NCBI GenBank assembly: GCA_021157815.1
Contig: JAGGVT010000003.1
Span: forward strand, 1-17,120
Direction: 5' to 3'
Length of the DNA: 17,120 nt
DNA from: a bacterium
Lineage (GTDB): Bacteria > JAJVIF01 > JAGGVT01
How positions within the stretch are numbered: the stretch's first letter is position 1; each line of letters starts with the position of its first letter. The notes beneath the pieces are model-generated. The model worked only from the letters and a program-made list of their open reading frames with translations. It did not search any database and was not told the origin of the DNA. This document shows positions 11,381 through 11,823 of the stretch, piece by piece. The position numbers and the translations under genes were made by a program.

Positions 11381-11413
11381 AAATGAGTTGATATATCGAC
11401 TCCCCCCCTTAAT

Positions 11414-11441
11414 CCCCCCGCGAGCGGGGGGAGTTTTTTTT
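11414..11441 (+). terminator. Rho-independent terminator of the HtrA gene
   Basis: CCCCCCG-CGAG-CGGGGGG forms a 7-bp all-GC stem with a tetraloop, followed by AG and eight T (11434-11441). It lies 34 nt after the HtrA stop. A second C-run upstream (11402-11408) could pair instead with the same G-run, extending to ACTCCCCC/GGGGGAGT. It is a very strong intrinsic terminator. Confidence 0.85.
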
Positions 11442-11455
11442 GCACTATAAACAAT

Positions 11456-11667
11456 GGCTCTTCAATAAATCGTGTGGGTTAAGTTTAGATTGAGTAAAAA
11501 AAGGGGATTGTCCCAACCAAGTGAATAAACACAGTATAAATAAGGGGTTACAGCATAGTATATTGATAACATCAGATTTGAAGCCTCATGTGGACGTACC
11601 CCGTTATCGGGAAATGCCCTTTTTTTTTACGGGAGGGCAAATAACCCACACAGTTTATTGAAGCGCC
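11456..11667. mobile_element. Non-autonomous MITE-like element, 212 bp, with TIRs and 8-bp target duplication
   Basis: The ends at 11456-11481 and 11642-11667 are inverted repeats matching at 23 of 26 positions; both start GGC, then share CTTCAATAAA and GTGTGGGTTA. Directly outside both ends is the identical octamer TAAACAAT (11448-11455 and 11668-11675), the expected target-site duplication. A second, nested inverted pair lies inside: GTAAAAAAAGGGGATT (11494-11509) against 11613-11630 (AATGCCC then nine T, AC). A shorter GGGGTTAC/GTACCCC pair is also seen, so the element as a whole can fold back. There is no open frame for a transposase, so mobilisation would need one in trans. The 8-bp duplication is compatible with several IS families; the parent family cannot be named from this copy alone. 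It sits between the HtrA terminator and a tandem array, in a 545-bp gap. Confidence 0.85.
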
Positions 11668-11716
11668 TAAACAATATATCTGATCTATTACTATCGATGG
11701 TGAGAAACAACACTCT

Positions 11717-11823
11717 CCCTCCCCGCTTGTCGAAGACCCTGAGCGTAGCCGAACGGGTCGAAGACCCTGAGCGTAGCCGAACGGGTCGAAGACCCTGAGC
11801 GTAGCCGAACGGGTTGGGGAGGG
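11717..11823. repeat. 28-bp tandem repeat, three identical copies, bracketed by inverted C/G blocks
   Basis: Units begin at 11729, 11757 and 11785 (GTCGAAGACCCTGAGCGTAG, then CCGAACGG), 28 bp each with no differences seen. The array is bracketed by CCCTCCCC (11717-11724) and GGGGAGGG (11816-11823), which could close a stem. Each unit holds an internal imperfect inverted repeat (ACCC...GGGT). The ORF readable through it on the minus strand is an artefact. No spacers occur, so it is not a CRISPR array. The rest of 11824-11925 is a short G-rich/T-rich stretch with a possible -10 box. Confidence 0.88.

Follow-up and report, generated by a model that had tools for sequence, protein, structure and literature searches.

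The 212-bp foldback element described here, together with its relatives in the same genome, forms a genuine MITE family whose sequence is new although its kind is known, and its unusual part is an inner cassette that is shared with other MITE families. The family is probably a non-autonomous DDE-type transposon (MITE) with ISL3-type ends that carries an independent REPIN-like passenger cassette. The element was found in a stretch of 17,120 nucleotides of bacterial DNA, the whole of which is referred to below as the window.

Structure of the window element

Between its two duplications the element measures 212 bp (11456-11667) and occupies exactly the place that an earlier, sequence-only reading had assigned to it; that reading's 26-bp imperfect terminal inverted repeats (TIRs; 23/26), nested inverted pair and exact 8-bp duplication of TAAACAAT were all recovered at the same positions. 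The two TIR arms (11456-11481 and 11642-11667), each of 26 nt, are complementary at 23 of 26 positions (88%). No ORF of 80 or more amino acids lies inside the 212-bp element, and we agree that no transposase is encoded within it. The outer part, with its ends, is called frame A in what follows. The features of the locus are:

11401-11455, plus strand: left part of a high-copy host repeat, including a terminator-like hairpin (11413-11432) downstream of an HtrA-like gene
11448-11455, no strand: left 8-bp target duplication, TAAACAAT, present as a single copy at paralogous empty sites
11456-11667, plus strand: frame-A MITE, 212 bp, with ISL3-type ends; 96.7% identity to the family consensus
11456-11481, plus strand: left terminal inverted repeat, GGCTCTTCAATAAATCGTGTGGGTTA, 26 nt
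11494-11630, plus strand: inner cassette, long form, common to MITE frames B and C and to sites without a recognised frame
11496-11514, plus strand: nested pair: left arm, which is REP-like and reads AAAAAAAGGGGATTGTCCC
11609-11627, minus strand: nested pair: right arm, a long-form variant whose plus strand reads GGGAAATGCCCTTTTTTTT
11642-11667, minus strand: right terminal inverted repeat, GGCGCTTCAATAAACTGTGTGGGTTA when read from its outer end inward
11668-11675, no strand: right 8-bp target duplication, TAAACAAT, present as a single copy at paralogous empty sites
11668-11726, plus strand: right part of the host repeat

Copies, target duplications and empty sites

A search of the element's own genome (221 contigs totalling 3.2 Mb, with a completeness of 90.9%) returned about 40 long matches to the element, and the TIR pattern, with up to three mismatches allowed, identified 128 ends there, the reversed control pattern identifying none. 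After the loci had been fetched and their ends paired, at least 52 distinct two-ended copies were counted (copy numbers given here are lower bounds), most of them 189-193 or 208-213 bp long, while single copies measure 221 and 105 bp; their median identity to the family consensus is 93.4%, that of the window copy being 96.7%. Copies with different 8-bp duplications, which the earlier reading had advised looking for, are indeed present in this genome: perfect 8-bp flanking duplications, representing 24 different sequences, surround 25 of the 52 copies, and duplications with at most one mismatch surround 34 of them, compared with 0.06 and 0.9, respectively, expected per 52 when left flanks are paired with the wrong right flanks as a control for chance. 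Paired flanks are identical in 37-41 of the 52 copies at exactly eight positions and in no more than 9 of the 52 at the next three positions outward. The duplicated octamers are 89.5% A+T, as opposed to 57% in the flanks. In 18 of the 52 copies the flanks differ at two or more of the eight positions, owing to decay, recombination or misassembly. No copy among the 52 lies inside an open frame of at least 100 amino acids (by a crude ORF call), and the 3' ends of neighbouring genes lie at a median of 45 nt from the copies, the 5' ends at one of 131 nt. Such an intergenic, 3'-end-near setting would follow from a preference for A/T runs in intergenic DNA, and nothing in the setting data shows a host function of the element.

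The window copy itself is embedded in another repeat (11401-11455 plus 11668-11726, probably running on to about 11850), which is intergenic, occurs at about 40 places in the genome and carries a CCCCCCGCGAGCGGGGGG hairpin; three tandem copies of GTCGAAGACCCTGAGCGTAGCCGAACGGG at 11727-11815 apparently interrupt its second hairpin. An empty-site query, in which the flanks of the window copy were fused around a single octamer, aligned without a break at the junction to three of the loci retrieved and, across the genome, to about 40 places with up to 94% identity. Among the host-repeat copies listed, some ten read ...TAAACAATATATCTG..., with one TAAACAAT and without the element. The empty sites sought were found in paralogous form, at further copies of the host repeat. 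Because single-octamer copies without the element exist, insertion is established, by paralogous evidence: frame A transposed into one copy of a different intergenic repeat and duplicated TAAACAAT in doing so. A copy of a different MITE frame (frame B, see below), at locus L124, lies inside the host repeat as well and has a duplication of 9 bp. The family thus shows properties of bacterial MITEs, namely short, non-coding units with TIRs, many copies with differing duplications of fixed length, and empty sites, in this case paralogous ones.

An inner cassette common to several MITE frames

What does the nested inverted pair represent? It had been proposed to be either a structured RNA, which could not be demonstrated, or a trace of two related ends; instead, the pair is seen to bound an independent repeat cassette of about 120-140 bp, whose inverted A5-GGGGACWGTCC arms are spaced by about 94 nt and which is also found in at least two other MITE families that differ from frame A in their ends and in the length of their duplications. 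The inner arm AAAAAGGGGACNGTCC occurs at 173 places in the genome (89 forward, 84 reverse), and many of these matches form inverted pairs, spaced by about 94 nt, that have no outer TIR in their vicinity. About 40 inner-arm loci, fetched for comparison of the cassettes, revealed a short form (about 106 nt from arm starts to ends, with arm starts about 92-94 nt apart) and a long form (about 125 nt). The cassette resides not just in frame A. It is found in frame B, a MITE of roughly 290-310 bp with CACTACTGTCCGGTTAA ends and a perfect 9-bp duplication in three of the six copies measured (L124, L126, L129, L145 and L146 are among its loci), in frame C, which has GAGACCGTTGCAAAA-type ends and a possible 5-bp duplication in one copy, and, without a recognised frame, at L125, L139, L148, L153 and L157. 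Since the cassette-bearing families have 8-, 9- and possibly 5-bp duplications, they should answer to different transposases. Among the MITE-like elements of this genome there is a further family with GGGGCTGTTGAAAAA ends (L038 6743-6873, L041 1706-1836, L079 4042-4172 and L064 1417-1869); the 453-bp member at L064 contains an inserted frame-A copy.

The cassette is REPIN-like in being an inverted doublet of palindromic arms with fixed spacing and a hairpin, and it has the two inverted REP-like palindromes at fixed spacing by which REPINs are recognised. REPINs and REP doublets, which are proposed to be moved by REP-associated tyrosine transposases (RAYTs), also consist of short palindromic arms in inverted orientation and at fixed spacing, are intergenic and form hairpins, and RAYT genes flanked by inverted palindromes are present in those systems as they are here (PMC3116915, PMC2817692). 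In contrast, the arms of the cassette are about 94 nt apart as against 71 bp in the P. fluorescens GI doublet, and its spacer of about 75 nt is, unlike that of REPINs, partly conserved (PMC3116915, PMC2817692). A further difference from REPINs is that its arms do not exactly match the palindromes flanking the RAYTs, and most of the copies seen sit inside DDE-type MITEs. The genome contains nine Y1_Tnp genes; two RAYT-like genes, for which NF047646 is the best family, below cut-off, are flanked by inverted GGGGAC-type palindromes similar, though not identical, to the cassette arms. Y1_Tnp genes at L198, L199 and L200 are each flanked by repeats of their own (ACCCGG..CCGGGT; GGGTGCCGCCCACACATCACG...), which suggests several RAYT/repeat pairs in one genome. 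Folded as single-stranded DNA, a short-form cassette copy has a z of -7.7 and the long form in the window one of -1.6. A MITE that carries a different kind of repeat has a parallel in Porphyromonas gingivalis, where the reported passenger is a minisatellite, a tandem array, whereas here it is a palindromic repeat common to several MITE families (PMC4596501).

Has the cassette moved by itself or been exchanged?

How did one cassette come to lie within several frames? Recombination among MITEs via their shared core is a serious rival to movement of the cassette, and we give it a substantial minority chance of being correct: the cassette would never have moved by itself, MITE copies would have recombined through the common core by template switching or gene conversion, and the frameless sites would be decayed versions of known frames. 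This reading is favoured by L135, a hybrid whose single cassette is flanked by an A-type end on the left and a B-type end on the right, by L142 and L155, where just part of frame C is retained, and by the fact that frames A and B each contain cassettes of the long and of the short form. However, the frameless loci L125, L148 and L153 have kept the cassette boundary at GCAAA...TTTGC, and recombination leaves unexplained how three unrelated end pairs first surrounded one core.

A tree of 81 cassette cores (78 alignment columns), in which most forks are unresolved, separates type 1 (most A, all B) from type 2 (C, several A and the frameless ones) with 99% SH-aLRT, and as frame-A cassettes fall on both sides of this branch, frame A holds both lineages. 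Frame labels are clustered on the tree and change 18 times, the minimum being 4. The A/B hybrid L135 and the two lineages within frame A suggest at least one exchange, rather than any detailed history.

It is also conceivable, if somewhat doubtful, that the cassette is an independent mobile element, which RAYTs would probably move by a single-strand mechanism, and that it has repeatedly inserted into the centre of foldback MITEs from unrelated families, thereby riding three DDE systems. Every two-ended frame-A copy read has the cassette or a collapsed remnant of it (in the 105-bp frame A of L090/L162 a single perfect palindrome is all that is left of the cassette), and the case for its separate movement is for this reason indirect; no empty site or insertion footprint of the cassette's own was found. 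In the mechanism that we propose, the cassette is a passenger at the element's centre and is multiplied along with the MITE; it would have been captured before the frame-A family expanded, and would owe its movement to RAYTs.

Which transposase moves the outer frame?

Frame A would be moved in trans by a transposase of the ISL3 family, given that both its end, GGCTCTTC..., and its AT-rich 8-bp duplication fit published ISL3 elements and a MITE attributed to ISL3. ISArsp7, an ISL3-family member of 1,451 bp with its own transposase, has the IR GGCTCTTCGCGGTT... and an 8-bp DR (PMC6305408). Insertion sequences of this type thus resemble the window element in an IR starting with GGCTCTTC and in an 8-bp DR, but they encode their own transposase and the remainder of their IR is different (PMC6305408). 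Closer in kind is a 187-nt MITE of Microcystis aeruginosa PCC 7806 that has been assigned to ISL3 and is bounded by GGCTCTTCG ends and 8-nt DRs (PMC11448079); it shares with our element the GGCTCTTC-type ends, 8-nt repeats, a size of about 200 bp, the lack of a transposase and a stem-loop. However, the inverted repeat conserved in it spans 9 nt (GGCTCTTCG) as compared with 26 bp here, an ISL3 partner is present in Microcystis whereas none was found in this genome, and the passages describing it make no mention of a shared inner cassette (PMC11448079).

A DDE_Tnp_ISL3 (PF01610) gene was not found in the 90.9%-complete genome, although control genomes do match, and one genome of the same class has an interrupted ISL3 transposase (PF01610) fragment. 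Likewise, no longer, autonomous element with frame-A ends (GGCTCTTCAATAAA; GGCTCTTCAATAAANNGTGTGGGTT) occurred among the ends examined in an assembly that is incomplete and breaks at copies, nor did any of these ends flank a transposase, an arrangement that the earlier reading had advised looking for. Four solitary interior ends (L076, L078, L080, L088), considered as autonomous elements, proved to be truncated MITEs. Of the earlier proposal that the element is moved by a partner elsewhere, the first half, that it has no transposase of its own, holds, and the partner itself was not found; with neither an ISL3 transposase nor an autonomous copy found, the mover is one that we infer. The ISL3 transposase gene may lie in the missing 9% or in an unbinned contig, or may have been lost. 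The element is called ISL3-type by virtue of its ends and is not filed as a proven ISL3 derivative.

Duplications of 8 bp are made by several IS families, and, taken with the failure to find an ISL3 transposase in this genome, this leaves it unlikely, though by no means negligible, that frame A is moved by some other 8-bp-duplicating DDE family (e.g. IS1595-, ISAs1-, IS66- or IS6-like) and that the likeness to GGCTCTTC is coincidental. That would require both the end and the duplication length to match published ISL3 elements and the ISL3-attributed MITE by coincidence; moreover, at loci of DDE_Tnp_1, the sole alternative family searched, frame-A ends were seen only at a neighbouring MITE copy. 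DDE_Tnp_1 genes were accordingly rejected as movers of frame A, the intact one (L113) having GGTACCGTTGCAAAA-type ends that are nearer to frame C. This IS5/IS1182-like gene (L113 1010-2275) lies at a contig edge, and its product is possibly a relative of the frame-C mover.

RNA, terminator and chance readings

Could the unit instead be a structured RNA gene, or a bidirectional transcription terminator under selection, that has spread for its function? We regard this as highly improbable. The whole element does have a strong RNA fold (z -5.2 and -5.8), which its inverted repeats explain, its A-run/G-run arms look terminator-like, and its copies often lie just past gene 3' ends; yet the window has no Rfam match, a terminator scan calls none inside the element, and the unit has spread by transposition, as its target duplications and empty sites show. 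On the same grounds the nested pair was dropped both as outward-facing terminators (the scan) and as a known RNA (Rfam). A chance palindrome beside a chance octamer, which could be entertained for the single window copy and nothing beyond it, has practically no probability left in view of the 52 two-ended copies, flank identity at exactly eight positions and the paralogous empty sites, by which the original claim of transposition rather than a fortuitous palindrome is borne out.

Range and significance

How widely are the element and its cassette distributed? With the phylum sampled by four genomes, and near-identical records possibly missing from some collections, the following results mean 'not seen' and not 'absent elsewhere'. 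The MITE had no matches among plasmids and phages or in 39 other genomes, and the TIR pattern none in three other genomes of the class or in IMG/VR. A TIR scan of GTDB species genomes gave two matches, in a Woesebacteria and a Gallionellaceae contig, which were rejected because they are single ends, in unrelated sequence, and at about the chance level for 19 specified bases in 257 Gb. The cassette had one 21-nt match, at the level of chance, in 191 other genomes, and its arm none in IMG/VR.

What is the significance of these findings? Taken alone, the element belongs to a MITE family of ordinary kind, from a bacterial phylum that has been sparsely sampled. If the cassette is self-mobile, it would be a passenger on elements that are themselves non-autonomous, and would exemplify one miniature element using others as vehicles; the target choice of REPIN-like units would then become a directly testable question.
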